DNA of 64,000 nt from Siphonodentalium dalli (taxonomy: Eukaryota; Mollusca; Scaphopoda; Gadilida; Siphonodentaliidae), in the NCBI GenBank assembly GCA_032622095.1, contig CP136067.1, forward strand, positions 58,321,899-58,385,898. Direction: 5' to 3'. The first letter of the stretch is position 1; each line of letters opens with the position of its first letter. Under the pieces are notes generated by a model. The model was not told the origin of the DNA. It saw only the letters and a list, made by a program, of their open reading frames with translations, and ran no database searches. Positions 11,801 through 61,905 of this stretch are shown in pieces. The translations under genes were made by a program, and so were the position numbers.

Positions 11801-14800
11801 GATAATATGAAAGTGTCAATGACACTGTAGCTCAACTTAGGTAGGGGAATAATTTAATGGTTGACAGTAAATGGAGGAATAGGAAAGGTGCTAATTGAAA
11901 TGTCTAAGTAAGACTAGATGTACATGTCAATATCAACATTCATGACAGGTTTCATAATGATCGGATCAGGGATGTGGTGATTATGGTGTGCCAAAGGATT
12001 TAGTGATGCAAAGAGTAAATTCTAAAATGGCCACCGGCAGCCATGTTTTTTTCTCCGAATTACCCCAAAATGACCTGTTCCCATCTACAGCCTTTACAAA
12101 TCTCATAATGATCTGATCAAAGGTACGACCTGAAGCCTGTGCCAAAGGATTTAGTCATGCAAAGAGTAAAATCCAAGATGACTGCTGGCGGCCACGTTTT
12201 TCGGCTGAACGACCCCAAAATGACTCGTATCCCATCTACATGTCATTGTTAACATCCATGACAAATTTCATGATGATCAGACGAACAGTACGACCTGTAG
12301 CCAGCGGCCATTTTTTTTTGGACGAATGACCACAAAATGACTCGTTCCCATCTACATGTCAATATCAACATTCTTGACAAATTTCATAAAGATCAGACCA
12401 AAGGTACGACCTGTAGCCAGCGCCAAAGGATTTAGTCATGCAAAGAGTAAAATCCAAGATGGCTGCTGACGACCATGTTTTTTGGCCAAACGACCCCAAA
12501 ATGACTCGTTCCCATCTACATGTCAATATTAACATCCATGACAAATTTCATGATGATCAGACGAACAGTACGACCTGTAGCCAGCGGCCATGTTTTTTGG
12601 ACGAATGACCTCAAAATCACTCGTTCCCATCTACATGTCATTGTTAACATCCATGACAAATTTCATGAAGTTCCGACCAAAGCTACGACCTGTAGCCCAC
12701 GCCAAAGAATTTAGTCATGCAAAGAGTAAAATCCAAGATGGCTGCTGACGGCCATGTTTTTGGCCGAACGACCCCAAAATGACTCGTTCCCATCTACATG
12801 TCAATATTAACATCCATGACAAATTTCATGGTGATCAGACGAACAGTACGACCTGTAGCCCGCGCCAATGGATTGAATTTTGAAATCCAAGATGGCCACC
12901 AGTGGCCATGTTTTTTGGCCAAATGACCCCAAAATGACTCGTTCCCTTCTACATGTCAATGTCAACATTCATGACAAATATCATAAAGATCAGATCAAAG
13001 GTATGACCTGTAGCCCGCGCCAAAGGATTTAGTCATGCAAAGAGTAAAATCCAAGATGGCTGCTGGCGGCCATGTTTTTCAGACGAATGACCCCAAAATC
13101 ACTCGTTCCCATCTATATGTCATTGTTAAAATCCATGACAAATTTCATGATGATCAGACGAACAGTATGACCTGTAGCCCGTGCCAATGGATTGAATTTT
13201 GAAATCCAAGATGGCCGCCAGCAGCCATGTTTTTTGGCCAAATGACCCCAAAATGAATCGTTCCCTTCTACATGTCAATGTCAACATTCATGACAAATTT
13301 CATAAAGATCAGATCAAAGGTATGACCTGTAGCCCGCGCCAAAGAATTTAGTCATGCAAAGAGTAAAATCCAAGATGGCTGCTGGCGGCCATGTTTTTCA
13401 GACGAATGACCCCAAAATCACTCGTTCCCATCTAAATGTCATTGTTAACATCCATGACAAATTTCATGAAGTTCCGACCAAAACTACGACCTGTAGCCCG
13501 CGCCAAAGGATTTAGTCATGCAAAGAGTAAAATCCAAGATGGCTGCTGACGGCCATGTTTTTTGGCCGAACGACCCCAAAATCACTCGTTCCCATCTACA
13601 TGTTAATATTAACATCCATGACAAATTTCATGATGATCAGACGAACAGTATGACCTGTAGCCCGTGCCAATGGATTGAATTTTGAAATCCAAGATGGCCG
13701 CCAGCAGCCATGTTTTTTGGCCAAATGACCCTAAAATGAATCGTTCCCTTCTACATGTCAATGTCAACATTCATGACAAATTTCATAAAGATCAGATCAA
13801 AGGTATGACCTGTAGCCCGCGCCAAAGAATTTAGTCATGCAAAGAGTAAAATCCAAGATGGCTGCTGGCGGCCATGTTTTTCAGACGAATGACCCTAAAA
13901 TCACTCGTTCCCATCTACATGTCATTGTTAACATCCATGACAAATTTCATGAAGTTCCGACCAAAACTACGACCTGTAGCCCGCGCCAAAGGATTTAGTC
14001 ATGCAAAGAGTAAAATCCAAGATGGCTGCTGACGGCCATGTTTTTTGGCCGAACGACCCCAAAATCACTCGTTCCCATCTACATGTCAATATTAACATCC
14101 ATGACAAATTTCATGATGATCAGACGAACAGTACGACCTGTAACCTGCGCCAATGGATTGAATTTTGAAATCCAAGATGGCCATCAGCGGCCATGTTTTT
14201 TGGCCAAATGACCCCAAAATTACTCGTTCCCATATACATGTCAATGTCAACATTCATGACAAATTTCATAAAGGTCAGACCAAAGGTACGACCTGTAGCC
14301 CGCGCCAAAGGAAATTGTTGACGGACACACACACACACGGACGACGGACGCCAAACCATGGCAATAGCTCAAAGTTACAAAGTAAGTTAAGCTAATAAGT
14401 GCATAAGGATTCATAATCTTTGGTGGGAAATGTTCAGATAACAAGTTCAACAAACGACCTGCTAATTTTTCATGGACTTTCCTGATTAATAATAGGCCCT
14501 TCCAATGGATATTTTCATAAGTAATGGGTTAATAGAATATACCTATGGTCATTTGTTGAACTTATTATCTGAACATTTCTTAAGGGAACTACTTGTCAAT
14601 GAGTATTTAGTATAGGAAGGGTTAAATTGATGACACAACTAAAGATACACAAATAAAATATAATAGTCTTGTATTTCATCAGCTACTGCAGAGGTTAAAT
14701 TGGAAAATGTCACATTTCATACTTGATCAACAGACTACAATTTTGTACCAGTCATGGGAAATACCAGCGTACCAGTTCCCATCTATGGTATTTTTATTTT

Positions 14801-17800
14801 AAAATTTATTATCTGAACATCTCCTAAGGAACTAATCGTCATTGAGTAATTAGTATAGAAAGTGTTAATCAAACCATAGGTTGAGTTTTGTTACACAACT
14901 CGACTAATTATGTTGATGCTACACCACTTACTAAAAGCTTGGAAGAATTAACATTCTCTATATAATTCCATGTCAGCTTGTCATCAGATTTTCTGGAAAC
15001 AGAAGAAAACAGATAAAAAGCTACAAAAACGAAAACAAAAACATAGATACTCCATATATTTCAACAAATATTGACCTTCCATCAAGTGAAGAGAAAAACT
15101 GTCAGATATAAAGATTTAATCATACTGTACCTTACCCCATTTGGATTTTCATAGATGCCCATCACTGAAAAAGGGACAGTTCCCAGCACACATTCAACAA
15201 TGATTGTTTCAGTAACCATGTGGTAACACTATTATTCCTTTTCATTTGGGTGTCTTATTAGTTAATTTATTTGATGTACCATACAAAAATAAATACATCC
15301 AGTTTGTGCAAGAGGAGGGACAAAGCCAGATAGTAGAAAATTAGCATTATTTATTCACAAAAATCAAACTTTTATCCCGATGAGGCAAACCTGCCGACTG
15401 ATTGCCTCTTCAGGTTTGGAATATTGCCAACTGCTTCATTCATATTTAGTTAGCTAGAGAGGAAATCCACAAGATGAACACAATTAATACTTACTCTTTC
15501 ACAGGTAGCATTCCAATACCTGAAACGATGAGATCAAGTAGAATGGTTAATACAGTTTAGATCATTTTCCTAAGTAATTGGATGGACAATCACCCATTGG
15601 TCGTCATATGGTCATTAACCCTTTACCCAACAAACCGGCCAAAACCGGCCAAATAAAGCTTCAACAGCCTAAAATATCTTGGGTCTGTCTCAATAAAACC
15701 ATACAAATATGGATATCATTGGAACCGGCTCATTGACCACATTGTCACAGTTATGCCCTGTGCCAATGCATTCTCTTATATATGTGAGTCGACCATAGGT
15801 CGCCTCGCATATATAAGAGAATGCATTGGCCTAAAAAAAATCTTTTTTTAACACTTTTTACCATTTTTTCTTACATTCTTTAACAATTTTATAATTTTTA
15901 ATGTGTTAAGCCAATGCATTCTCTTATATATGCGAGGCGACCTATGGTCGACTCGCATATATATGAGAATGCATTGGCACAGGGCCCTTCTGTTGGGTAA
16001 AGGGTTAAAGGTATGTTTGGTTTTCACAGTGGGTACATAAGAAAAGTCATAAAAGTCTTAAAAACCACTATTTCCAAGAAGAGCACTGAGAAATAGATTG
16101 ACAATGTTATAATTTACATTATTAATAATTCTGAGATTTCACATGTTGAGACCATTGTTTAATATGTAAACATTAATTTAGCATAACAGCAAGACTCGTC
16201 ATATCAACAAACAATTTATTGCAGTCAGATCAAATCGTGACTCCATGCATTATAATAGATCAGGAATTCAATAATATCCCGAAAAGCACAAATTTTCAAC
16301 TAAAATATTTGAATTGCAATTGCCACACGCCAAAGTTAGACTTGAAAAATGCAACCTGTAGACACAAAATAAATGTATTCAATGTAACTGTGACCATAAT
16401 GAAGATTTGCATTCCCCATTAGCCGAACAATTGTCAGGACTATTTCTTGTTGATGTTGTCACTGAGAGTGAAGCTGTAATTTATGTCAGTGCTTATCAGT
16501 ACATAATTTACAATTCTGTAAATTTAAATTCAACTTCCAGTTAGTATTTGTCAACCAATTTCAGCACCATAGGGTTACCAATTGCATGTGGGCAGAATAA
16601 TTTATGCAGAACACAATGCGCATCAGAATCTCTAATCTCATAGAAAACTTGTTGAAGATGGCATGGAGTTATGTTTCAGAAAATATAACCTTACACAAGG
16701 GTTTCTGCCAAGTGTAACATATACAGTAGTTCATTTCAATGAATCACAATAAACTGTGTTTTTATTTTTGACAAATGAAAGGTTTACATGCATACATATA
16801 TGATTTACATATGATCAGTTCATATTGGGATAGCATCATAGCAACATGCTTTATTTGACAATATAATTGCAATGTAACCAGGCAGAATCGTGCATGTGGC
16901 TTTTAGCGATGCACACTTTGATATCTTTCAGAATAATGCAATAACTATCGATATTTTCCATAAAAATGGTCCAGTAAGATCAATGTTGGCAAATAAATAA
17001 AATTATTTTCATTTTATCATTCATTGAGATAAACATACATTTGACATAGTCATTAATCTGTAGATTGGGTAAGGGAATGTGTCAGAAATATGAGCTATAG
17101 GGGGAAAGGACCCGAAATGGGACCCACTTCCCATCTAGTGGAAACCCTGCTAACACCAATCAAAATTCACTTGATAGAAGCTCTCGATTCAGATATGCAT
17201 GTTCTGTCATTATATTTCATAGCTTGAGTGTTGACCCTTCATGTATTACCTATACTTACTTGTAACTTTAAGTTCTATCTCATCTCTTGCCTTTATCAGC
17301 TTGAGAACTTCATCGTGGATTGCTTGGCTAATTGTGAAGCCATTAACCCTAACTATCTCATCTCCCACCTGTCATTATAGAATTATACATAATTCAAATT
17401 CAACAAATAACCCTGGTTATGTCACCAAGATTCAGGAACATGATAAACTAAAATTCATCATTATAATTTAACTGACATTTCTTCCTATATCATGAACTGG
17501 TCGAGAGCTTTTTTCAAACACTCTCATTGGGCAGTGATCAAATTTTATTGGCACACCCTACAATAGTAATGGCAGTTGCCTCTGCTGCCACCATCAATAC
17601 ATAAAAAAAATGAATAATATCCACACTCGCCTTCATAAAAGAAAATACTGTCAAAGAAGTGCATTTTTTATCAGCACTTCTTATTATTATTTGACCGAAT
17701 AATACCATTGACACTTTGTGAATGGAAAATCCAATTGTTTTCTAATGTTCTCTGCTATCAAGTACAGTGAATTATTTATGCGGTTCAGTTATAAAATTAC

Positions 17801-20800
17801 AGTGCATTACTCCCTCCAACTCTAATTTGATACATGAGGATAAATTTTACAAAGAAAGCTTCTTTGATAGTTTGAATCTGTGTAGGCGTTTTGTTTTCTT
17901 TAAGAATTTCCTATGGAAAAAGTTGGACAACAAAAAATGTCTTTCCTTCGATTGAGAATATCTTAAATGAGTGCTAAAAAGGCCATAAGTTTGACATGGA
18001 AAATATTCAGTGACATATACACTTAGCTACTAAATCTAATCATTTGTATTTTCGGAGATACAGTAATGCCCTAACTAATCGACTCCTTAACCAAAGCAGA
18101 ATTATGGGTTATTTTTCAGGATTTAGTCCGAAATATGGCTTGTTGCCATTCATCGGAAAGCTCTCTGTGAGAGCTTTCCGATGAATGGCAACAAACCATA
18201 TTTCCGACTAAATCCTGAAAAGTTATCATAATTCTGCTGTGGTTAAGGAGTCGATTATTTAGGGCATTACTGTAATTACAATTTGGCTTCTCATGTAGAA
18301 TCAGAAAACTTCAAATTTCACTGATTATTTACCTTTAAGCCCTGTTGTTCAGCCTGGGATTTTTGTTCAACATGTGAAACAAAGACTCCGACGCCATGTT
18401 CAAATCCTGCAACACAGAAAAGCACATGATTGGTCATGTGTGACATTAACAGCTTTGATAGCCCATCCCATATGCTGCACCAGAGCAGCTCCCGTCATGA
18501 AAGGGTTAATCATTCCCCACAATCTTGTGTTTATATTTCACTGTTGCCTGCACGATAAAGACAAACTTTCCTGCATGAGAATTACACTTTAATTTATGGA
18601 CTTTCTTGCCTTTTTCAATTCGATTCAATTTGAGTATATTGGTGTGTATTCAGTTCAATATTTGTTTCAATCAGAAATGATATTTTTCACTGCAGCCTAA
18701 TTTACTTGCTCCAGATGTATATGGCATTCAGCCTCAATAGTATAGAGTCCAGACCAGAGTCTGGCAGAGAGCAATCCTTACTGTTATCTTAACAGTACAA
18801 AAAGTGTAGGGAAGAGAGGGAGTCTGTCTTCAATAGTTAATTGCAATGAACTTTCATCGTTGAGGAATGAGAAGTGGTGTTGCATTATAATTATCAAAAT
18901 AAAACATTTTGATAGGGAAAGGCAAAATAATAATTTTTATATTGGCCTTAACCCTTTCTTGATGGCAGCTGCGCTAGTGCATCATTCAAGATGATGTGCC
19001 AGTGCATTCTCTTATATATATGCGAGTCTCCCACAGGGAGCCTCACATATTTAGGATAATGCACTGGCTTACAAGATCAAGGTAAATATTGTTAGGCCAA
19101 TGTATTCTCTTATATATGCGAGGCTCCCTATGGTAGACTCGCATATATAAGAGATGCATTGGCACATGGTTTTTTCGCAAAATTTCAGGAAGGGTTAAGC
19201 AAAATTTCATGGAAGGGTTAAGCAACTTATTATCTCAATCAGATCATTATAAGTTGGTAATTGACATAAGTTTTGTGTTTTCTAAGAAATAATTATTTAT
19301 AGTTTCTCGTAGTATATTTACCTCCCCTGACAGCGAATCCTAAGCTCTCACCAGGGAGCTTCCTCAGTCTGACGACTCTTAATTTCTCCCCTGGATGAGA
19401 TGGGGCTAACTTGTCATAGCTGATCTGATGCTTTGGAGGAACTAGTGGTCTGTAAATATGTTACACACCATTAAAGTATGGCAAGTACTATTGATACTAG
19501 TAGCTACAATACAATTACAGCTATTGTAGCTAAATATGACCATTTCTGCAGTGTAGACCAATCAAAGAGCGATAACTGAAGACACCAAAAACAATTAATG
19601 TAATAATACCATAAAAAATATCTCGACTTGACTACTCTTATTACCCCTTTCCTTACTAAATACTCATTGATGAGTAGTTCCCTCAGGAAATGTTCACATT
19701 ATAAGTTCAACAAAGGTCGTTATTGAATTTATTATTTAAACATTTACCACCAAGGAATAGGATCCTTCTACATCTGTGTTAACTTTGTTTATAATAGACC
19801 ATTCTAATGTATACTTTTGTAACTGGTGGGGGATTCCATTTAGTGAAGAGAGAGTTAATGCCACATTGAACAAGAGTTACTGAATGTTCAGGTTGAACAA
19901 ATTGTAATATGTGATCAATTAAATTTTGTTTTTAAACATACTATGATGTTAGCCCCTTTTTCCCTCAACCAATCTGTCTGAAAAATGGAACTATTTTTAG
20001 TTTAGTCATTACCATGGCTGTGCTTGGGTATACAAATTTGCACTTGTTACTCTTCTTTCAAGTTGAGACATGGGCCAACTGATCGGATGAGCGGAGCATA
20101 TAATAAACAGAACATCTGCACTTTTTGGATGGATATGGTAATTATCTCATTTGTGATGACAAAAAAATGTATTTCGACTCATGGCAGAGCCACTCATGGA
20201 ATTTCATTTTTTTGTCATCACTCATGAGATAATTACCATATCCAACCAAAAAGTGTAGATATCCTCTATATAATTATACAATTCCCGGACTTCCCTAGGT
20301 TTTGAGCAACCTGCTGAAACAGGGGTTTTCATGGTTCAAGTGCTTCTTTCTGATCCAACATAACAACAGATTCAGTTGCACCAGTTTGAAAAAAATGCCT
20401 GCATCCAAAGAAAGTTGGCAAAAGGTGTGTTTATAGCAACACATCAGATTATGTTCTCAACAAATGCGCTGTTTACAGCCTGATGCAATAGTTTCTTTAC
20501 AATTCACCATGTATAGGCATGCAATGTAATTCACCTGTCTAAAGTCAATGTAACTGTTTCAAATTCAGGGAAAAACAAAGAATGTTGAGTGATGAAGATC
20601 TCTAGATAACACAACTTTTATTTTTGATACATTAAATACTAGGGGGTATATAAATTTACATAACCAAACTTATGTTGGGAAAAGTGGTTGCCACTGTTAT
20701 CATCTGATGTTTAACTTTTGATTACTGGCCACTCAGCAGAGCAAGATTATCCCAAAACATAGGTTAGGGACAATAGCAGGTGAGAAGAGCTAGTATCATA

Positions 20801-33312: not shown

Positions 33313-33443
33313 ATATATCTTCCGAGTACACATTTTCCCCGAGTCGAAATCGGGGTCGGAGTACACTTTTTAGTGACCATCCAGTAAAATGTTGATGGAT
33401 TGTTTTGCTCAGGCATTTGCAAATTTTAAGTAGCATGTACATT

Positions 33444-34040
33444 AGATCATGCCATGAATCTCTACTCTGGCTAACGCACATAGAGATCATATTCCACCAA
33501 TATAAAACCTTGGATCTTTTTGAAGTTTTGACAGGGAACCTTATAAAGTCGAAACAATAAAACGGGGAATATATATCTTAGTTATTATCTGTTCTTTAAT
33601 AAATGTACTTCGCTGTAGGTGAAGGTCCCAACTAAAAATTGCATGCTTTTCTTTGACTTTTGTGAGCTGATATCGCAATAAACAATTAATTAATTACCCA
33701 GGAGAAATGCCATAATTGTAGCGTGACAAAGCAAAATCGCTCACAAATTCACTTAATTAAATCGTGAAATTTCGAGTTGGGATCTTCACCGATGGCGATG
33801 ATGAGGCTATGGTGAAGTACGTTATTAAGGAACAGATAATAAGTAAGAAAGATATTCCCCGCATTATTGTTTCGACTTTATATGGTTCCCTGTCAAAGAT
33901 TCAAAACATTCCAAGGTTTTGTACTGGAGGAATAAATCTGAATATGATCTTGACGGCCTGTAAGGGCATTAGCCTAGGCTATCAGCCGCTATGTCTATGA
34001 TTAGCCAGAGTAGAGATTCATCATTTCATGGCATGATCTA
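33444..34040. repeat. Foldback repeat with >200-bp arms
   Basis: Arms 33444-33650 and 33768-34040 are inverted copies around a loop of about 115 bp ('agatcatgccatgaatctct', 'ttattgtttcgactttata'). A 78-codon frame (33764-34000) falls wholly in the right arm and has no domain I recognise. Confidence 0.75.
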
Positions 34041-34520
34041 CATCATACATGGGGTCCTACTAAACAACGAACACAAACGAACATAAACGAACACAGGTCT
34101 AAAATCGGAATGGAAAGGTGAAATTTGGTTTGTGGGTGTGCATGGGTCCATTCTATGTGTATGTGGTGTTATTTTCAAGTTTGATGACTTATTTTTTTTA
34201 GTTATTAGCATTATTTGAATACAAAGCTACTAAACAACGAACACAAATGAACATAAGATTAGCGGCGGCAGTGCAAAGGTGTGAATACAGGTGTTAATTA
34301 ACTATCACCTTCTCTATGGCTTATACCCTGTTTCTTTGTCACTGAGTTGTTTTGACTTATTTATTTTGTCTTATTGTGACTTCGTATAACTCCCCTCATC
34401 CTTTATCTGGGCTTGGGACCAGCAGACTTCAGAAAAGTCAGGCGGATTTAAAGTTTTTTTAATTTTTTTTTACACACACACGCATGGACATATATATATG
34501 TTTGTGTGTGTTATATACAC

Positions 34521-34800
34521 TGCTCTTTCAGTAGAGCTTCCGGTATAATCAAAGTTTATATATACAATCGAATATTTACATATGTGTATGTTATATATAT
34601 CGCACTGCTCTTTTTATCGAGCTTATGTGTATATTATACATAGCACATTGCTCTTTCAGTAGAGCTTCAGGTAAAATTTAAGTTTGTTTTATATACCATC
34701 GAATATTTACATGTGTGTATGTTATATATATCGCACTGCTCTTTTTATCGAGCTTATGTGTATATTATACATAGCACATTGCTCTTTCAGTAGAGCTTGC
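34521..34800. repeat. 131-bp tandem repeat, ~2.1 copies, inside MULE
   Basis: 'cgcactgctctttttatcga' recurs at 34601 and 34732 with nearly identical surroundings; 'gctctttcagtagagctt' recurs as well. Confined to the interior of the MULE at 34052-35904. Confidence 0.85.
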
Positions 34801-35049
34801 TCTTGTGAGCTGACAATTGTCACAGTTTTAGCAATGACCGGTACATCCAAGTCTATATGCTACTGTATATTTGCATATGAAATCATTCGTTGAAGACAAA
34901 TCCACCCACTGACATTCAAGAATACCCAACATTAGAGGTAGCAAACTCAGCCCTCGGCGGAACGATGGGTAGAGTTTGTTCTCCTTGAAGTCATCAGTGG
35001 ATGGAAATGGCTCCAGCAAAATATTACATCATTTAAATCCAGGAAGTCT

Positions 35050-35499
35050 CTATGCTATTGTATATTTGTATCTATATGTTAACTTTCTGTCGTTTATTGG
35101 TGATCGTCTTGGTTTTTTTGCGAGAGCGGTAGTTTTGGGTATTGTTAATTGTCCGTCAGTTGAAGTTTGAAATTTGGAATTGTCACTCACAAAATTAAGC
35201 AGTCTTCGCATCCGTCTGTCTCGTTGTTCGGCTGTCATATTCGTCCAAATTTCGTGTCTCACTTTCAATGATGCCATATCTGATAACGTAAAATCCCCTC
35301 CACCGTGGAGGGCGCCTTGAATGTCACGCAGTTGGTCAGTCACTATTTCATTTAAATTGTCTGACAAATCGGTTAATTTTTTTGCCTTCCAATTGTTTTC
35401 TAATTTAATTATATTATTAAGGCTTTCACAATTGTTATTTGTCCAACATTTCGGAATTGTTGAGAAAATATATATAGTCATCTCCGAGACTGACACCAA
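35050..35499 (-). pseudogene. MULE transposase C-terminal remnant
   Basis: An open frame of about 149 codons includes CWTNNNCESLNNIIKLENNW, then a Lys/Leu-rich helix, DIQGALHGGGDFTLS, and a basic tail. The [S/T]NNxxES-N signature after the catalytic region is typical of Mutator-like transposases, as is the moderately conserved region after it. The DDE catalytic domain and zinc finger should lie upstream (higher coordinates) but only TIR sequence is there. The copy is therefore an internally deleted, non-autonomous element. It ends with a stop just before 35050. Confidence 0.6.
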
Positions 35500-37828
35500 T
35501 CACTCACTGACATTCACTCAAATGTTTTGTTAGCTATGCATTAAAACGCCGACCTCTGATGTTTCCCGTGTTTTTATTGCCACCAGTGACAAAACTGACA
35601 TCACCTTGTAGTAAAAACAACTCACAGATGTGCAATTAACAAGGTGACAGAGTAAGTCGTAGTTAATTAACACCTGTCAGCCTTTGCACTGCCGCTAATC
35701 TTAGAACAGTTATGTTCGTTTGTGTTCGTTGTTTAGTAGCTTTGTATTCAAATAATGCTAATAACTCAACAAATAAGTCATCAAACTTGAAAATAACACC
35801 TCATACACATAGAATGGACCCACGCGCACCCACAAACCAAATTTCACCCTTCTATTCCGCTTTTTAGACCTGTGTTCGTTTATGTTCGTTTTTTAGTAGG
35901 ACCACATACATGTACACTACATGTGTATCTAGAGTTGGAGATTCATGGCATGACCTATAACTAGACCTGAATCCTGATTGTTGATCAAAGATCATTTGCA
36001 ACATCTTGAAATTGAATTGAAAAATTTGCACTTTGCACTTTGACTTTCTGTTTCAACTTCAAGTTCAACAGTTCAAAATCAAATTTCAACAGGTCGGGCA
36101 CACATCCAAAATGGTCTACGTAGCTCGTTTTTTCTACTGTAGCCCGAGTGAGCTACGTTTTTAATGTGATTTACACACATCCATCGATTACCGCCATACC
36201 ACGAGAAAAGCGCATTTCGAATTTTCGTTCATTAGTTGTGTACCACTATTGCGTCTACAAAGAAGCAAAACACTCAATGACTCACCACGGCTTAGACGCA
36301 ATTAACGATGTTTTAATTAAGACCTGTTAGCGTTTGGTAGTGACTTTCCCGAAAATATCAGATTTTGCCATAAAAAGCAGGGAACGATCCATTTGTTTTT
36401 GCAGGATATTTATTTTTGAAGGTCAAGAACGTCCAGTTTATGTGGCTTACCTGATTGGATAAAGCGAACAGCTTCACTCGGAGACGACTATTTGTTAAAT
36501 GTTTGGCGACCGCCGTTCAGAGAAGGCAACTACGGAAACACGATTCACAACTCTACATTGAAATTTGGAAGCACCTCGCGTAACATTACAGTTATACAAA
36601 TATGGTTGTCCTTTTGTCGTTCCGTACATTCCGACAGATAGATGTTACACTGAAATCCCATTAAGAACGTACCATTAATCCCCGGCTAAATGCAACCAAT
36701 CAGATTATCGCCTGCACACGGATGTTTGCGAACACAATTGCGTAGTGCTGGGCGGTATTTCGGTATACCGATTATAGTCGGTAAGATTTTCAATACCGTT
36801 ACCGTCATTCTTTCCCATAATCGGTAAACCTTGAAGACGGTATTATCACCGGTCATATGTCGTACAGGCCCATTACCGAGTATATTGTGGTTTTCCTTTG
36901 TCGGGATACAAAGAAATTACTTCGTTTCTTTACACCGTATTTCAACGAAATCACAATTAAGAAGTAGCGAGTTTGTGTCAGGAGATAGTGTTGCTGTAAA
37001 TTGGGCTGGAGTAGCTACTAGCGTTGCGGATTCTGTTTACCAAGTCATCCCCAAAATTGGCGCGAATATATTTCAAGACTTACGTTGTGTGCCCCATGCA
37101 CGTGCTGGTCGACAATTTAAAAATGACCAGTCCGTTTCAATGATTGGCGTGTGCAAGTTTATGTCATTTCCAAACAAAATGAATTCCCTCCTCACCTGGG
37201 ACAAAATCCAGCCCTAGCATTATATTGCAAGGTATGTTGCATCATTCTGCGCTATTTTTAATCGACTGAATGGATGGGGCAGATCATTATTTCAGGAGTG
37301 TTATCGAGTGGGAATTATTGATCACATTCATAAACCTGGATTTAAAAGTATGATTTATAATAATGCAACGGGAAGTCAATAATAGTTCTAGAAGTTAAAT
37401 ACTTTGGAAGTAATACACTTCATTTCCCGGCATTAATAAAATCATTGTACTTATTGTTAAGTTATTCACACCCGGCGGAACATTCCAATATCAATGTCAC
37501 AGCACGTGCTCTGCAAGTCGGCCCTGTCAGTGGGGGATTGTTTCAAAGCTCTTGGGTGTATCCAACTTCGCTGAATGATGCTTGCATTAAGTTGTATAAA
37601 TCTCAATTATTACCTGTATCTAAGATCAGCTCATGAATCCATGCAGATAATGATACATCCATTGATTGCATTCCATAATTTAATAAAACGGAGCGTAAAT
37701 TTCCTTATTTTATGTAATCTGTGTAGCGATTAGATTTTCCTCCATAAACAGTCGACCTGTGCACCAAACGAATGCTACTAAACGGGGGTTTTAAGGGATT
37801 AGTTTAAATAAACGGTAATACCGTATGC

Positions 37829-39501
37829 GGGTACAGGACGTTTTGTAACGTGGTCGTTTCGTACTTGGTCGTTTCGTACCATCTGGTCGTTTCGTACCAT
37901 ATTGTTTGGTCGTTTCGTACCGCATTCTTTGGTCGTTTCGTACCATGTAGAAAATCAATTGGTCGTTTCGTACCGTGTGTTGGAAATGTGGAAAACACGG
38001 TATTTTATATATATATTTATATTATGTATGTATAATTATTCATGTTTTGGAATGCGGCGAAAGATATTATGAGATTTGCTTACATCGAATGTGAATAACA
38101 ATCACGCTGACAATAGTATTCATCTGATTGACTGCGGGAAAGATCTTATGAGATGTTTTTACAACAAGTGTTAATACTAATCACGCTGTATAAACAAGAG
38201 GTGAGCTCTTACTGATTACCACTAATTACCACCTGGCTTCTTGATCACACCTTTTCGTGAGTTGTTTTTGTTGGAATCCTATAAGTAACATGAGATCCCC
38301 CATCATTTCATCATTCATCTCACAATCATGTCTGACTTTCTCTCCGACGTTAATTGTATGGACTTTGACAAGGAAGTCCAAACACAAGTTACTACCAGAG
38401 GTAGAAAGACGTGGTTGTTATTTTCACTGGACCCAGGCCGTGAATAAGCAGATTCAAAAGAAAGGGCTGATCGAACTGTACAACATAAAAGGAGACGAAT
38501 ACAGGTAAATATTTGTTCTCATAAAATAAAATAGTAGATAAAATAAAAATAATAGAATTATATGATTAAAATAAAATAATAGAATTGTATGATTAAATCA
38601 ATTTTTTCAAAATATAACTTATATAATTATTATTTTATATTTCAATTATATAAGTAGAATAATGCTATTATTTCAATTAGCATAAATAGGGGGAAATTAG
38701 AATAATATATAACAAACTGAAAATTTTCTTATTTATGTTTATATCTTCTCTTCATTTTTGTAGGCAACTGCGAAAGCTTTATGCTTTGCCACTTCTGCCA
38801 GCTGAACACATCCGATCAGCATTTGCCAGGATGCGAGATCACCCGACAGCCAAAATCGGCAACATGCCATTAATCTACGAGTATGTGGAATCACAGTGGC
38901 TGGACTCCAGATGCCTACCAATGGAATCGTGGTGCGTCCACGGGTGCTCCATCCGAACAAACAACGACACTGAGGGATGGCACAGACGCATCCAATACAA
39001 AAACAAGGCAACAAACATCCCATATTACATCCTGGTTCCAATGCTCAAGAAGGAATCGGCAACAACAGACATGACAGTAAACTATTCTGCTTGTGGAGTA
39101 ACTACGAAAACGGCGGCATCTCCACCAGTGGTCTTTTGAAGGCATGTTCAAAACTGTTTGCGCCAACAGTTGCTGTCCTTGCTGTCGAGTCTGCTGATTG
39201 TTAATCAAATAACAAATATCATGTCCCATATTATTGTGTAAAATAATGTTGTTAATGTTAATATGTTATTGTTATTTTAAAATAAAGAATAAAGTATGAA
39301 ATTAATACTGTTTTCCCCCATTCCCAACATGGAACAACACACGGTACGAAACAACCAATTGATTTTCTACATGGTACGAAATGACCAATTGATTTTCAAC
39401 ATGGTACGAAACGACCAAACAATGCGGTACGAAACGACCAAAAAATATGGTACGAAACGACCAGATGGTACGAAACGTCCAGGTACGAAACGTCTAGAAG
39501 C
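37829..39501 (+). mobile_element. MULE nested inside the hAT-type element
   Basis: TIRs of about 160-180 bp consist of repeated 'tggtcgtttcgtacc' (six near-identical units on the left; inverted 'ggtacgaaacgacca' units on the right). Flanking 9-mers ACCGTATGC and CCCGTATAC match 7 of 9. It contains a two-exon transposase C-terminus on the plus strand. The 1.67-kb length indicates loss of the N-terminal coding part. Confidence 0.75.
38257..39139 (+). pseudogene. MULE transposase C-terminal part, two exons
   Basis: Exon a (to about 38503) encodes LPEVERRGCYFHWTQAVNKQ, then IQKKGLIELYNIKGDEY. Exon b (38763-39139) encodes QLRKLYALPLLPAEHIRSAF and later CSIRTNNDTEGWHRRIQ. A GT-AG intron of about 259 bp joins them in phase at a split Arg codon. 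The GCxFHxxQ and TNNxxEGWH signatures are typical of animal MULE transposases. The frame upstream of exon a carries stops, and the first catalytic Asp region is missing, so no active enzyme is expected. The context is the MULE TIRs on both sides. Confidence 0.7.
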
Positions 39502-39747
39502 CCCGTATACCGCGGTATTTTTATGGTTATAAATACCGCCCAGCACTACAATTGCGACCGGATCTACCTCAGATTTGATGAAGATTTACATTTCGATCAA
39601 CAGATTTTGATGATCATTTCATACCGTTTTTCATGGTAAATTGACCAAAACAAACTTGATTTTGAATCGCTCAAAAGGAATTAAAGCCGTGGTGAGTCGT
39701 TGAGTTTTTTGCTTCTTTGTACTTGAAGTTGTAGACGTGATACTAGT

Positions 39748-40194
39748 GCTAATGGGGTCGTTGTCATAACGTTTTATACATAAATGCACACCGTGTGCAT
39801 TTATGTATACATAAATGCACACCAGTCTCAGTCGGCGCGAGATTGAAACGTTACCGTAAATTATTGCCGTCTGCTTCAATTCATAACTATTTTTTTTCCC
39901 AATGTTCTGATAAAGGCATTCTTTTATCATAATGACGAAACTGCAATAAATTGGTCATCGATCGCATATTTTCCTTAGTATTAAAAAGGGACGGAAAGAA
40001 CTGCATGCTTGTTTGGTCGATGAACGGAAGAAAAAACTTACAAAAAGTATCATAACGTGTGCATTTACGTAGAAAACACTACGACAATGGCCCCTGTCAC
40101 ATGACACTACGCGAGACTGGTGTGCATTTATGTATACATAAATGCACACGGTGTGCATCTGTGTATAAAACATTACGACAACGACCCCATTAGC
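39748..40194. mobile_element. 447-bp TIR element splitting the outer right TIR
   Basis: TIRs begin GCTAATGGGGTCGTTGTC and extend about 90 bp, with a subterminal 'tttatgtatacataaa' palindrome embedded in 'gtgtgca...tgcacac'. Perfect 9-bp duplication GATACTAGT (39739-39747 and 40195-40203). No ORF. The 9-bp target suggests MULE-type or Merlin-type mobilisation. Confidence 0.82.
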
Positions 40195-41511
40195 GATACT
40201 AGTGCCAGTAGTGGTACACAACAGTGACAACTAAAGAACGAAAAATTCGAAATGCGCTTTTTTCGTGGTATGGCGATAAACGCAGGAGGCGTGTAAATCA
40301 CATTAAAAAAGTAGCTCAATCAGGATACAGTAGTAAAAACGAGCTACGTAGAGTAGACCGTTTTGGACGTGTCAGACTCATTGTGAATTTGTGTGCCCGA
40401 CCTGTTCAAGACCTTTGGCTTTGCCTTTAGGCTTTACAGTAACAGTCACTACAGTTTACTATAAATAAGTATAATGCTTTATCCTGATATAAGTTATAAC
40501 ATTATTACTTGGGCATGGAATCTTCTAGCGACTGTTCTTTCCACCATCACAAATCGTTATATTTTATATGACGCTGACCAAACACAAAATGACAGCATAA
40601 ACTGATAAAAGTTAAAACACAGTAAAATCGATTTCGTTTGTTTACAATCGAAACGCTGGAAGTCAAATCCTGTTTCCGGAATCGCTATTCACATACCAAT
40701 AGGGAATTGCAAAACACATTTAACACGTTGAGTGCCGGAAATCAATTATTAATCTCGCCAGTTTGCCAAATCGTGGCAAGATAGATACCCTTAGTAGACC
40801 ATAATTTGGCTTCAATGGAGCAATAATTGGATGACGTCGCGACTTTAGATGACAGAAACGGCGATTGATAGTACTACGAGATAACTCGTAGCCGGCACTG
40901 GCGTAAGGAATCTGGGTATTCCCACCACCAGTGCCAACTACGAGTTATCTCGTAGATTAGATTTTAAATTAGATTAGATTTTATTTTGATAGTTCAGGTT
41001 TACATGAATACATATTATGGGTATGTTTACAAGTTGAATCAATATAATACACAGCAGTATATACATATTATAATTATAATAGTTTATATTAAATATAAAT
41101 ATGTTATATGTTGGGTTCTGATGAGACAGTTAGAGTTCAGACTGTGTACATAATTGATATATACCGTAAGAGGATATATAAATTTTCTCAAGAATTGATT
41201 CATTTTATTTTATAGAGGTTGCCGTCAGAATATAAGGTAAATTATGTGGCAGAAATCTGTATAAAAATAGAAATACTCATGTGACCTGAGACCACCAGGG
41301 ATAACGCAAAAAGTTCTCTAAATGAGAACTTAATTCCATTGCGGTCCCTGGTGGCTTTCGGCACATGGGCAGCGAGTGAAGTTCGAAACTTCGGAGCACA
41401 ATGTATAAAAGTATTTAAAATATAAATTAAATAAAAGCCATTTCAGAACGAGACTTATATGGAGAGGAAAATCTAATAAAATAAGTCAATACGCAAGTAA
41501 TGTAACTTCAA

Positions 41512-46260: not shown

Positions 46261-46473
46261 CGAGAGCTTCACATTCCACAGCTATGAATTCAGTACCTCC
46301 AATTACTACAAAAAACTAAGCCACCTAGACAGCTCCATCCGAAGTATGAACTCAATTTTCGACCGACCCATACTAGCAGTCCCAAATCAGACACAACCCT
46401 AGGCTCAGCATCAAGATCGAACAGATTAGCATCCCAAAATACCTTTAACACACCAAGGAAAGAAAATCTCAGA

Positions 46474-48507
46474 TTGCTAATTGTTAATTGTAGAAGCCTA
46501 GTCAGCAACAAAGCGGAACTGGAAATTGCAACCACCTACATAGAGCCTGATGTTATCATCGGTACAGAGTCATGGCTAAAAGGAAAGAAGCCAGGTAAAG
46601 AACCAGCTCAAAATGCCACCAAGTCAGCTGAAGTCTTTCCTGAAGATTATACTGCCTATTATAGGAACGACCGAGATACGACGGGTGGAGGAGTCTTCAT
46701 TGCCATTCACCCGGAAGCAGTTGCAATAGAGAAGACAGAATCGCGATTCCATCAAAGAAGTCGTGGAAAAAAAAGAGTGCCAAAATCACAAATATGTCGA
46801 CGTAAACAACTACCATGGATAAATAGAAGACTCAAACAACTCCTAAGGAAAAAAGCAAGTCTACACAAGAAAGCTAAAGAAGCAGGAAGTTGGAAAGAGT
46901 ATAAATACCACCAGAAGAAATGTAGAAGAGAAATGAGGAAAGCAGAGCAAGAACACATCAACACCATAATAAAGAAGGGGAAGGAACAGAAAACATCAAA
47001 ACCTTTTTGGAGCTACATGAAGGCCAGAAAACAATAGAGAACAGGTACGCCACCGCTAAAAACAGGAACATCACTCACAAACGACACAAAAGAGAAAGCG
47101 GAGCTATTAAATAAGCAATTTCAGTCGGTTTTCACCATAGGCACTGATGAAGAGCTACCATCCATACCGCAGAACAGTGTAAACATAAAGACACTGGAAA
47201 TCACAGAAGAAGGGATAAAGAAGCTTCTGGAAGATATCAAACCATCAAAGGCACCAGGTCCAGACAACATCACTAATAAAGTACTCAAAATACTGGCCAA
47301 TGTATTGGCGAAACCCATCACCACCATATTCAACAAATCCATAGAGACGGGCACCCTTCCAGAAGACTGGCTGAACGCAAACATAACACCAGTTTATAAG
47401 AAAGGAGATGTACACCAACCATCAAACTACAGACCAGTATCACTCAGTTCAACATGCTGTAAACTACTAGTGCACGTCCTGTGCAGACACATCCGCGACC
47501 ACCTGGAACTATGCAACCTACTTACTGATAGAAACCACGGATTTAGATCTGGCCACTCATGTGTAACCCAGCTTGTAATCACCACACAAGATCTACTATC
47601 GTCTTTCGACTCGGAGAAGCAAACAGATATGGCAATTCTCTACTTTTCCAAAGCCTTTGACACGGTACCACACCGGAGTCTATTATACAAACTGAAGTCG
47701 TACGAAATCACCGGACATATACACAGCTGGTTGACAAGCTTCCTAACAAAAAGGCATATGAGAGTAGTGTTGGAAGGAGAAACATCCAAAAGTGTTCCAG
47801 TGGAATCGGAAGTACCCCCAAGGCACGTACTAGGACCTCTACTATTCATCTGCCACACCAATGACCTTCCAAAAGCAGTCAAATCAGAATTAAGACTCTT
47901 TGCTGATGACTGCATCCTATACCGCCAGATAAATGGCCACCAAGACCACATCCAACTACAACATGATCTGACATCACTAGAAGAGTGGGCGAAAACCTGG
48001 GGGATGAGATTTAATGCTCCATAATGTCCATGAAGAACAAGGACAAGAACAAAACATCGTTCATCTACCAACTTGACAATAACATTCTGCAAACAGTCAA
48101 ACAAAGCGTTTACCTAGGATTGACCATCACAGACGACCTAAAGTGGACAACGCACATATCCAAGATCACTGGAAGAGCCAATAGCACCTTAGGCTTCATA
48201 CGCAAAACCTACGAAGAGCGGATAACAAATCCAGAGAGACAGCATATAGAGCTATGGTGAGAACATCACTCGAATATGGAGCTGAAATATGGGACCTCGC
48301 CGCAGTAGGAGAAATAGAGAAGTACAGAGAAGAGCGGCTAGATTTATCACCAACAACTATAGAGACAGAGAAAAAGGCGCAATAACCAGCATGATAGATG
48401 GCCTAAGGTTAGACTCACTAGAGACCCACAGAAAGATGAAGAGAATAGAACTCTTCGGCAAGGTGGTTGAGGGAAAATCCCAGCCACACACACACATGAC
48501 TTACTAA
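46474..48507 (+). pseudogene. CR1 ORF2: endonuclease (shortened) and reverse transcriptase
   Basis: The APE-type endonuclease start is clear (LLIVNCRSLVSNKAELE, then GTESWL). At about 46745 it jumps, still in frame, to the RT-proximal basic linker, so roughly 130 residues of endonuclease are deleted. A stop at 47035 precedes RT motifs: KAPGPDNITNKVLK, NYRPVSLSSTCCKLL, FSKAFDTVPH (47648) and FADDCILYR (47900). The first motif-A position reads Tyr where an Asp is expected (ILYFSKAFD). The GVPQGT-like motif reads EVPPRH, as from two compensating single-base indels. Frame changes follow at 48024 and 48260. Inactive. Confidence 0.88.
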
Positions 48508-58091: not shown

Positions 58092-61000
58092 ATGGCTAAT
58101 ATCAAAATTGTTGCACAAAACTGTCGAGGACTGTCTTCCGATCAAATAAAACGTAGGGATATTTTTGATAGATGTAGGACAAATTTCGACATAACTTTAT
58201 TGGTAGATACCCATTGTAGTAAGGAAACCGAGTCCAAGTGGAGAGCCGAGTGGGGTTATGATGCAATTTTTTCTTCATATTCTAGTTCAAAAAGAGGTGT
58301 AGCTATACTCTTCCGAAACACAATTCAATATAAAATTCATGACAAAATAATAGATCCAAATGGAAATTTTATTATTTTAGACATCGAGATACAAAATCAA
58401 AGACTCAGCCTTTGTGCTATTTATGGACCAAATAAAGATGAGCCATCCTTCTTTGAAGGTTTTTTTACGAAACTAGAAGAAATGGAAAATACTTCAATTT
58501 TAATTGCTGGGGACTGGAATGTACCTCAAAATTATGCAAATGACACGATAAATTACAAGCAAGAAAATAACACAAAATCATACCAAAAAATTCAACTTTG
58601 GAAAAATAAAATAGACCTACATGATGTATGGAGGCTACATAACCCGGATGCTCGGCGCTACACTTGGAGGGGTCCTGAGAAAAAAATGGCTAGACTTGAT
58701 TACTTCTTAGCTTCATCAGATCTTCAACTTTTTATTAAAAAATCAGACATTTTGCCTAGCTATAAGTCGGACCATAGTCCGATAAGCTTAAATTTACAGT
58801 TTGTGTGTCATGCCAGGGGAAGGGGAACATGGAAGTTTAATAATAGCTTACTAAGAGACCGAGAATATATTGACCTAATAAAAAAAACAATATCTGAAAC
58901 TGTCGACCAATATAGCATCAACAATCAGGCAGAAACAACATCCATAGACTCTGACTCTTTCAATGTTAATGATCAATTACTTTGGGAAACCTTAAAAATC
59001 ATGATTAGAGGAGAGACAATAGCTTACTCATCCAAATTGAAAAAAAATAGAGATAATATTGAAAAGATACTGGAACTAAAACTAGTTCAATTATATGAAA
59101 AGCTAGATGCAGGTGATACAACTATAATAAATGAACTAGAAAGTGCCAAAACAGATCTAAGGACAATAAGAGATAAAAAAATACAGGGAATTATCACTCG
59201 CACAAAAGCTCGATGGAAAATTGAAGGAGAAAAATCGACAAAATACTTTTGTAATCTGGAAAAAAGAAGTTATATTGAAAAATCTATTCCCAGTCTAATA
59301 AAAAGCGATGGAACAGAAACAAATGATTTCCCAGAAATTTTATGTGAACAACATAACTTTTACAAAGAATTATATAGCTCAAAATTGTCCAATGACGAAG
59401 TGGTAGATGACATTTTTTGGGATGTAAATAACCCATTCTTTAACTTTTTGGAAGTGGAAGAGTCAGAAACTATGGAAGGTTGCCTACTGAACCATGAATG
59501 TAGCAAAGTCTTGAAAAAAAATGAAAAATGACAAGTCGCCCGGTTCAGATGGATACACAGTTGAATTTTAAAAGTTTTTTTGGAACGATCTTGGAAAATT
59601 TGTAATTAATTCACTCAATTATGGATTTAAATCAAAAAAACTATCAACAACTCAACGATGTGGAATTATAACTTGCATACCAAAACAGAATAGACCTAGA
59701 AACTATATCAAGAATTGGAGACCAATCTCATTACTGAATGTTGATGCTAAAATTGGATCGGCAGTCATAGCAAACCGATTAAAGAAACATTTGCCAAACT
59801 TAATTTCTGATACTCAGCTGGGATTCTTGTCAGGTCGATACATTGGAGAATCAACTAGATTAGTATTTGATCTAATACACAAATGTGAAGAAGATAATAT
59901 ACCAGGTATCCTCACACTGCTCGACTTTGAAAAAGCCTTCGACTCCGTAGAATGGAGCTTCTTGGAAAAATGTTTAGTATTTTTCAAATTTGGCCCAGAT
60001 ATAATCAATTGGATTAAGACTTTTTACAATGATATCTACAGTTATATAATAAATAACGGGCATTTATCAGAAAGAATAGATATTGAGAGGGGGGTGCGCC
60101 AAGGTGGTGGCCCTCTATCTCCCTATTTATTTATCATAGCTGTCGAGATCCTCAGCTCGGCACTAAAATTTAACCCAAATATCAACGGAATTAAAATCCA
60201 TGACTCGGAATATGTTTTAACTCAATATGCAGATGACCTGAGCCTCTTTCTCCGGGATGACACACAATCATTAAATACAGCACTAAACTTAATTAATTTA
60301 TTTGCAAAAATATCAGGACTGAAAGTGAACTTTGATAAAACCCAGGTTTTATGGATTGGATCGAAGCGGGGCTGTGGTGAGGAACTAAACACTGACGAAC
60401 AAATATTGTGGAACCATGATAGTTCCGTAAAGATCTTAGGTATAGAACTTAATCTTTTCAACGAGGATTATATCAAGAAAAATTATATTGACAAAATAAC
60501 AAAAATAAAGAACTTATTAAATGATTGGTCATTTAGACAACTTAGTCTCATTGGAAAAACAACTATCATAAAGACTTTAGCACTCCCTATTCTGACACAT
60601 TGTCTATCGGTTCTCCCATCACCATCTCAAGAAATAAAAGACATGATTCAAAAAGAATTTTACAATTTCCTTTGGTCCGGAAAAATTGATAAGATTAAAA
60701 GAAATGTTGTAATTAATAAAACAAATTTAGGCGGGTTAAATTTCCCACATATTGACTCATTTGATAAAGCTTTGAAATTATCATGGGTTAAAAAAACATT
60801 AGACCCTTTACTAATAACTGGATGGAAAACCATATTTATAGATGATTTAGAAATATATGGAGGAAACAAAATTTGGTCTTTGAACAAAGAAGGACTCGAT
60901 ATTGTTAGTTCAGACATGAACAATTTCTGGAAAAGTGTACTACATGCATGGTCTTTAGTAGAAAAAAAATCCACCACAGCCCCGGTCGACATCATGTCAC

Positions 61001-61905
61001 ATCCAATACATTTAAATAAACATATTACTGTTAATCGTAAGAAATTTTTTGATAAAAATTGGATTAGCCATGGAATATATTTCATTAATGATTTAATGAA
61101 TGAAACCGGGAATGGTTTTCTAGATTATTTCTCATTTTGCTCTATGTATGGTATTCAAACCCCATTCACTACATACCATGGTCTTTTGAATGCTATACCA
61201 TCTGAATGGAAAACTATTTTGAGGTCAAATACAAAATTGGACTCTATTAATATGCAACATATTGAGACTGTGCAATCTGCAGTAAAAGTATGTAAAACAT
61301 TCTACCCAAAGTTTTTAGAAAATAACGCTATAAAGCCAGAACTGACACAGAAGAAATGGGGTGAACGTCTTAAAAAACATATTAGCAATACAGATTGGGA
61401 AATAATTTACTCAAATCCATATCAAATTACAGATGATACTGGTTTACAAACATTTCAATATAAAATTTCACATGATATCATTTACACAAACTCCAAACTA
61501 TATAAATGTAACTTATCAGAAACTGAATTGTGTGGCTTCTGTGAAACTGCAAAAGAAACAAATTTACATTTCTTTCTTGAGTGCACAGTCTCAAAGACCT
61601 TACTCCTTCAGTTCCAAGACCTCCTGCAAAGTAAATGTAATATCACTTTTGAAATTATTCCTGATTTCATCATTCTTGGTTTGCGAAATAACACCACTGA
61701 CTCAAACATTATTGATATATGCATTTTATTATATAAGCGTTATCTATATTATTGCAAATTAAAGGCCAATGCACCAAGTATCCAAGGGCTTGTCCAATAT
61801 ATAAAATATTACAAAACAATTGAAACTTTCACTCCGCCAAAGTTCAAATCAAAAAAAGAAATTAATTTTAGAGAAAGATGGGAAGAAGTGAACAGTCTGT
61901 TTTAA
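58092..61905 (+). pseudogene. L1/Tx1-like ORF2: APE endonuclease + reverse transcriptase
   Basis: First frame 58092-59531. Endonuclease motifs are in order: QNCRGLS, DTHCSK, AIYGPN, AGDWN, ARLDYFL and SDHSPIS. At 59512-59520 one extra A in an A-run shifts the frame, and a TAA at 59569 stands where a Tyr is usual. The second frame runs to 61905. RT motifs: NWRPISLLNVDAKI, LLDFEKAFDSVEW, GVRQGGGPLSPYLF (one Gly longer than the usual RQGxPLSP), QYADDLSLFL (YADD at 60226-60237), and VKILGIEL. A C-terminal Cys-rich stretch reads CNLSETELCGFCETAKETNL, then HFFLEC. About 1,270 codons in all, the usual L1 size. Confidence 0.93.

Follow-up and report, generated by a model that had tools for sequence, protein, structure and literature searches.

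Nested insertions

Nested DNA transposons in four layers occupy positions 36090–40404 of the stretch of Siphonodentalium dalli contig CP136067.1 analysed here (64,000 nucleotides, hereafter the window). An outer element contains a hAT-like element, which itself contains a Mutator-like element (MULE-like), and a separate 447-bp foldback element lies within the right arm of the outer element. A preliminary description had proposed this arrangement, with three-level nesting and a separate insertion in the right terminal inverted repeat (TIR) of the outer element, and it was borne out by the ends, the duplications and the pairing of the arms. We are confident, short of certainty, that four independent non-autonomous cut-and-paste DNA transposons were inserted here successively. 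Successive insertion is the best reading of the nest, and a very likely one, because in three of the four layers the symmetrical inverted repeats are bordered directly by an exact target duplication. The ends, the duplications and the nesting are directly visible in the letters, and the features are as follows.

36085–36089, no strand: target duplication TTCAA of the outer element, left copy
36090–36293, plus strand: outer element, left inverted arm, lacking the 447-bp element; pairs with the right arm
36294–36734, plus strand: outer element, own interior before the hAT-like element; the frames tested matched no protein family
36735–36742, no strand: target duplication CAATTGCG of the hAT-like element, left copy
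36743–39548, plus strand: hAT-like element, including the inner MULE-like element; TIR TAGTGCTGGGCGGTATTT
37829–39502, plus strand: MULE-like element in the hAT-like element; arms with GGTCGTTTCGTACC repeats; ends placed to within a few bases; imperfect duplication CCGTATGC/CCGTATAC
38331–39139, plus strand: transposase-like gene remnant, from translations, with splice sites read by eye
39549–39556, no strand: target duplication CAATTGCG of the hAT-like element, right copy
39557–39683, plus strand: outer element, own interior to the right of the hAT-like element, located by the hAT duplication before it and the right arm after it
39684–39747, minus strand: outer element, right inverted arm, inner part; the final 9 bases are the left GATACTAGT copy
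39739–39747, no strand: target duplication GATACTAGT of the 447-bp element, left copy
39748–40194, no strand: 447-bp foldback element; its arms, about 82 bp long, agree at 95%
40195–40203, no strand: target duplication GATACTAGT of the 447-bp element, right copy
40204–40404, minus strand: outer element, right inverted arm, outer part
40405–40409, no strand: target duplication TTCAA of the outer element, right copy

Target duplications and inverted repeats

The exact duplications abut the symmetrical ends of the outer, hAT-like and 447-bp elements, and they differ in length, being 5, 8 and 9 bp, respectively. Three different lengths accord with separate insertions, since different transposases are expected to give different lengths. 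When up to 400000 random pairs of junctions per length were drawn in the window (pairs near the window end being skipped yet counted), exact matches were obtained 607 times for 5 bp, 25 times for 8 bp and 16 times for 9 bp.

Pairing of the arms was assayed by comparing the local score of each pair with the maximum from 200 mononucleotide shuffles of one arm. The scores were far above the shuffles for the outer element (188 against 25, and 66 against 22 for the inner part of its arm), the MULE-like element (213 against 27) and the 447-bp element (144 against 23). The short hAT ends were also clearly above the shuffles, with the smallest margin (36 against 20).

The hAT-like element had been described beforehand as a hAT-type element with a perfect 8-bp duplication inside the outer element; the duplication and the location were confirmed. 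It is flanked on both sides by CAATTGCG, an exact 8-bp duplication as hAT requires, and its TIR is short and perfect, the 18 bp of TAGTGCTGGGCGGTATTT being identical at both ends. Its own length, with the inner layer and the duplication of that layer subtracted, is 1124 bp. No match to a hAT transposase was obtained in the three scanned frames that lie in, or reach into, the left part of the element. The name hAT-like is therefore used here as a putative one, taken from the ends only.

For the 447-bp element, the perfect 9-bp duplication and the location inside the outer right TIR were likewise upheld. The copies of GATACTAGT on its two sides are exact, the right arm of the outer element is split between them, and the 9 bp fall within the Mutator-like rule of 8–11 bp. 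The first 18 bp of both ends are identical, GCTAATGGGGTCGTTGTC, and the two arms together account for more than a third of its length. Folded as single-stranded DNA, the element gave −110.5 kcal/mol, compared to a mean of −47.15 for 100 shuffles (z −15.57), which is foldback-like. No coding sequence was recognised in the two overlapping frames scanned. An 11-bp reading of the duplication, GATACTAGTGC, was rejected because symmetrical 447-bp ends remain with the 9-bp reading only.

The MULE-like element is about 1674 bp long and lies near the right end of the hAT-like element. Its inverted arms, of roughly 150 bp, consist of repeated GGTCGTTTCGTACC units, with 124 nt paired at 94%; seven units were counted in each arm, the left and right patterns differing slightly. 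The remnant inside it has an ATG start, a frame change near 38400, an apparent intron at about 38506–38764, with splice sites judged by eye, and, from 38765 on, a C-terminal-like part. This last part presumably resembles the end of animal MULE transposases. In a Pfam scan of the MULE-like frames the remnant gave no family match, and thus neither a MULE transposase nor a DDE domain was found, as is to be expected if the catalytic part is gone. Hence, the label draws on the architecture of the arms and the presumed resemblance; it is a putative one, and we write MULE-like and do not file the element as a member. Label and boundaries alike are less secure here than in the other layers. The earlier claim of a MULE inside the hAT-type element thus held for the paired arms and their subterminal repeats, and was weakened by the imperfect duplication and the Pfam result.

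The outer element is bounded at 36090 and 40404, with exact TTCAA flanks, and its own length is 1045 bp once the inner layers and their duplications are subtracted. When its arms were aligned with the 447-bp element left out, 274 columns were obtained, of which 63 were gapped; the arms pair over about 200 bp, with 189 of the 211 ungapped columns identical (89.6%). The preliminary description had given this element a TTCAA duplication and a 10-bp TIR. The duplication stands, whereas the TIR is about 200 bp long. The ten-base end, CAGGTCGGGC, is not strong evidence and proves little alone, since the window holds 3 matches to it at up to one mismatch, and as many or more turn up in 5 of 100 shuffles. 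Random pairs with junctions fixed like those of the outer ends matched exactly over at least 5 bases in 432 of 200000 cases.

Coding capacity and searches for relatives

There are 21 open frames listed in or over the outer, hAT-like and 447-bp sequence. Seven of these, and one frame of a neighbouring element, were scanned for protein families. No transposase domain was found in the frames scanned, that is, in the MULE-like frames and the 7 of 21 just mentioned, and the layers are for this reason best read as non-autonomous, having presumably been moved by related full copies elsewhere. Weak matches under the curated cut-offs (E values of 0.078 to 0.16) were not believed.

The peptide of the MULE-like remnant gave 1 pattern match in viral contigs, which tblastn did not confirm, and 23 in prokaryote assemblies, with 0 confirmed. 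No match to the outer core was present in the prokaryote assemblies. One stretch from the viral contigs, picked up by a 17-base MULE-like subterminal pattern, appeared by eye to lie within a phage integrase gene and was rejected as chance. These misses say little, as viral and prokaryote collections are poor places for eukaryotic elements. Within the window, a 24-nt likeness between 35663 and 36313 was dropped because it did not reach E 0.01.

A literature search with five end sequences gave one paper, on Bacillus, for the hAT end string, and thus none for the outer end. A search for TTCAA, a TTNAA-like rule or a 5-bp duplication rule gave nothing recognised as relevant among the matches listed. 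Neither result is proof that the outer element is undescribed.

Order of insertion

Nesting places the outer element before the hAT-like element and the latter before the MULE-like element; it also places the outer element before the 447-bp element. Nesting does not show whether the 447-bp element came before or after the hAT-like and MULE-like pair, because they occupy different parts of the outer element. The earlier statement that boundaries and order are readable for every layer thus stands for these two series, but not for the 447-bp element relative to the hAT-like and MULE-like layers, and it holds less well for the MULE-like boundaries.

The sequence of events would then be as follows. 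The outer element landed first, and the hAT-like element probably entered its interior afterwards. The MULE-like element would next have entered the hAT-like element near its right end, and the 447-bp foldback element would separately have entered the right arm of the outer element. Each layer was presumably mobilised by a transposase supplied in trans, which would join both ends of the element to a staggered target cut. Repair would leave the duplications, of 5 bp (outer), 8 bp (hAT-like), about 8 bp, imperfect (MULE-like) and 9 bp (447-bp). We infer that the layers are inactive at present.

The outer left arm contains neither the 447-bp element nor a copy of GATACTAGT, which supports a later insertion into the right arm. 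Arm identity is 89.6% over ungapped columns for the outer element, as against 94% for the MULE-like element and 95% for the 447-bp element. This greater divergence agrees with the outer element being the oldest.

Alternative readings

A number of results weigh against successive insertion, or against the reading of particular layers. No second copy and no empty site of any layer was seen within the window; at E 0.01 each layer matched only itself there, bar a 21-nt match to the MULE-like interior at 6848–6868, which was taken as chance. Exact patterns of the outer core, the 447-bp element, the MULE-like subterminal repeat and the hAT end brought no confirmed relative from the viral contigs. 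The outer left arm is no clean empty site for the 447-bp element, because gaps of about 12 alignment columns fall right at the insertion place, where comparable target bases are missing. Nor can the age of an insertion be read off the divergence of its arms, since these may differ already in the parent copy. In the 50 bp that precede the outer element, TTCAA is present 5 times (the left duplication copy counted), a number not exceeded elsewhere in the window. Because of this richness, which may reflect target preference or coincidence, the outer 5-bp duplication is somewhat weakened, and of the exact duplications it is the one that we trust least. For the MULE-like element, CCGTATGC/CCGTATAC agree at 7 of 8 places (or 7 of 9), with one mismatch in 8. 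The agreement exceeds chance by only a modest margin: when boundaries could shift by up to 3 bases, 57 of 3000 random placements were as good, and when they could shift over 30 bases, 592 of 1000 reached at least 7 of 9.

Could the nest be a single composite transposon that moves as a whole and always includes the inner pieces? That no empty copy was seen would fit such a unit, as would outer ends that are recognisable on both sides. However, the hAT-like and 447-bp layers each have an exact duplication of their own, of a length fitting separate insertion, and one outer arm is without the 447-bp element. We consider a composite origin most improbable. A composite could have spread later as a unit, its origin still being by nesting.

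Two further alternatives concern one layer each and are compatible with the successive insertion of four elements. The outer element might come from a family that follows a different target rule (a MULE-like one of 8–11 bp, for instance) and have lost its duplication, the TTCAA at both ends being chance. The TTCAA-rich left flank speaks for this, as does the finding that, with the real left outer junction kept, 773 of 200000 random right junctions match over at least 5 bases; MULE TIRs are, moreover, often hundreds of base pairs long, according to excerpts of PMC6446971. An eroded long duplication was looked for and rejected, since, with the ends set by the TIR, outer flanks of 8, 9, 10 and 11 bp match at 1, 0, 2 and 4 places, so that none is visible. 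We regard a lost duplication as unlikely. Similarly, the inner MULE-like element could be of another superfamily, or could be two pieces joined by rearrangement. The imperfect duplication and the lack of a Pfam MULE domain in the remnant would agree with this, but the 124-nt inverted arms at 94%, with their matching series of subterminal repeats, argue against it, as does the in-frame remnant with its presumed likeness to the animal MULE C-terminus. Such an origin for this layer appears to us quite unlikely. Finally, it is very unlikely, though conceivable, that the outer element represents a eukaryotic DNA transposon superfamily or lineage not described before, with a 5-bp TTNAA-like duplication, arms of ~200 bp starting with CAGG and a preference for TTCAA-rich targets.

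Surroundings of the nest

The whole window was scanned for inverted repeats with adjoining duplications, and the 114 repeat pairs considered, each 14 nt or longer, yielded 9 entries, some of them overlapping. The outer element came out of the scan with its exact ends, and the hAT-like and 447-bp elements to within 2 bases; the MULE-like layer was unreported. Since the scan also points to other elements, such as those at 10190–10631 and 34052–35903, the nest is one of several insertions in a transposon-dense stretch.

A second MULE-like element lies to the left of the nest, at 34052–35903 (about 34051–35905 in the scan), with ends GGGTCCTACTAAAC/GGTCCTACTAAAA, inverted arms of about 250 bp running inward with CGAACA repeats, and a duplication TCATACATG/ACATACATG matching at 8 of 9 places. 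An open reading frame on its minus strand (35050–35499) looks by eye like a transposase C-terminus; Pfam gave two sub-cut-off matches only. Inside the same element, and on the same strand as this frame, is a twister-P1 self-cleaving ribozyme (34389–34454, minus strand; 71.6 bits, E 2.3e-14, above the gathering score). Truncated twister versions occur in RTE retrotransposons, according to excerpts of a review (PMC7761336), whereas the host at 34052–35903 looks like a DNA transposon. Around it, overlapping inverted repeats between 33443 and 35957 (33490–33602 with 33822–33934, 33443–33458 with 34025–34040, and a further end match at 35938–35957) suggest a further element that may have been split by the one at 34052–35903, or duplicated on either side of it.

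Elsewhere in the window, a 442-bp element at 10190–10631 has 57-nt inverted arms starting with CAGGCC and a perfect, long duplication of 11 bp, CAGCTTAGGAT. The stretch 15773–19153 has 63-nt inverted arms starting with CTCTTATATATG and a perfect 7-bp ATGCATT on both sides. To the right of the nest there is a hairpin (40874–40955) whose 38-nt arms are 84% complementary, with CTACGAGATAACTCGTAG-type palindromes at its start and end. A tandem array at 12096–14312 gave overlapping period readings of 115–116, 164, 279, 319 and 483 bp.

Two regions resemble long interspersed nuclear elements (LINE-like). The one at 46288–48024 has an RVT_1 domain in 47038–48024, and the other, at 58092–61905, has an endonuclease domain, an RVT_1 domain and a zf-RVT match just under the cut-off. 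There are no transfer RNA genes in the window, and nothing but the one ribozyme was found there at Rfam gathering scores; among 9 RNA-family matches up to E 0.5, eight to microRNAs were below those scores and were set aside. The window looks eukaryotic on account of the two reverse-transcriptase regions, the apparent intron in the MULE-like remnant, the lack of a transfer RNA gene and the ribozyme as sole Rfam match.

Significance and comparison with known systems

The nest is common genome clutter, an ordinary nested insertion in a transposon-dense stretch, and is of low general interest. Nests with clean duplications do give a local, clock-free order of transposon activity, which is useful for the history of one genome; the phenomenon itself is well known. 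Should the outer element prove to be multi-copy with constant 5-bp duplications, it would be worth an entry in a repeat library and a search for its transposase.

Transib elements have a 5-bp duplication and CACWATG-type ends. The outer element is like them in duplication length, having 5 bp (TTCAA) on both sides, and unlike them in its ends, CAGGTCGGGC, and its arms of about 200 bp; it is accordingly assigned to no family here.

The hAT-like layer is like non-autonomous hAT elements in its 8-bp duplication and short TIR, and its end TAGTGCTGGGC presumably resembles hAT ends. It differs in that no transposase remnant was seen in the frames tested, and the sequences past the 18-bp TIR are largely unlike. 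The 447-bp element is comparable to Mutator or foldback miniature inverted-repeat transposable elements in its 9-bp duplication, its arms of over a third of the length and its strong single-strand fold; it differs from them in that no coding sequence was recognised (two frames) and no relative was found.

The putative labels hAT-like and MULE-like, for the second and third layers and the 447-bp element, follow from duplication length and end structure. Labelling of this kind is customary, though weaker than labelling by transposase, because in Repbase practice, as excerpts of PMC4455052 have it, non-autonomous DNA elements are classed mainly by the sequence of their termini, their duplications and the features of their TIRs. 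For MULEs, excerpts of PMC6446971 give duplications of 8–11 bp.

Closest in description to the MULE-like layer are Muta1 and Muta5 of Aedes aegypti, from the Muta or Phantom group of Mutator-like elements. In excerpts of PMC5225508, the long TIR of these elements is made up of a short terminal motif and 12- or 15-bp subterminal tandem repeats, the duplications are of 8–9 bp, and many copies are non-autonomous with altered interiors. Our layer departs from Muta in its duplication of 7 of 8 and in that no catalytic domain was found. It resembles the published description of Muta (PMC5225508, excerpts) in its arms of roughly 150 bp with subterminal repeats.

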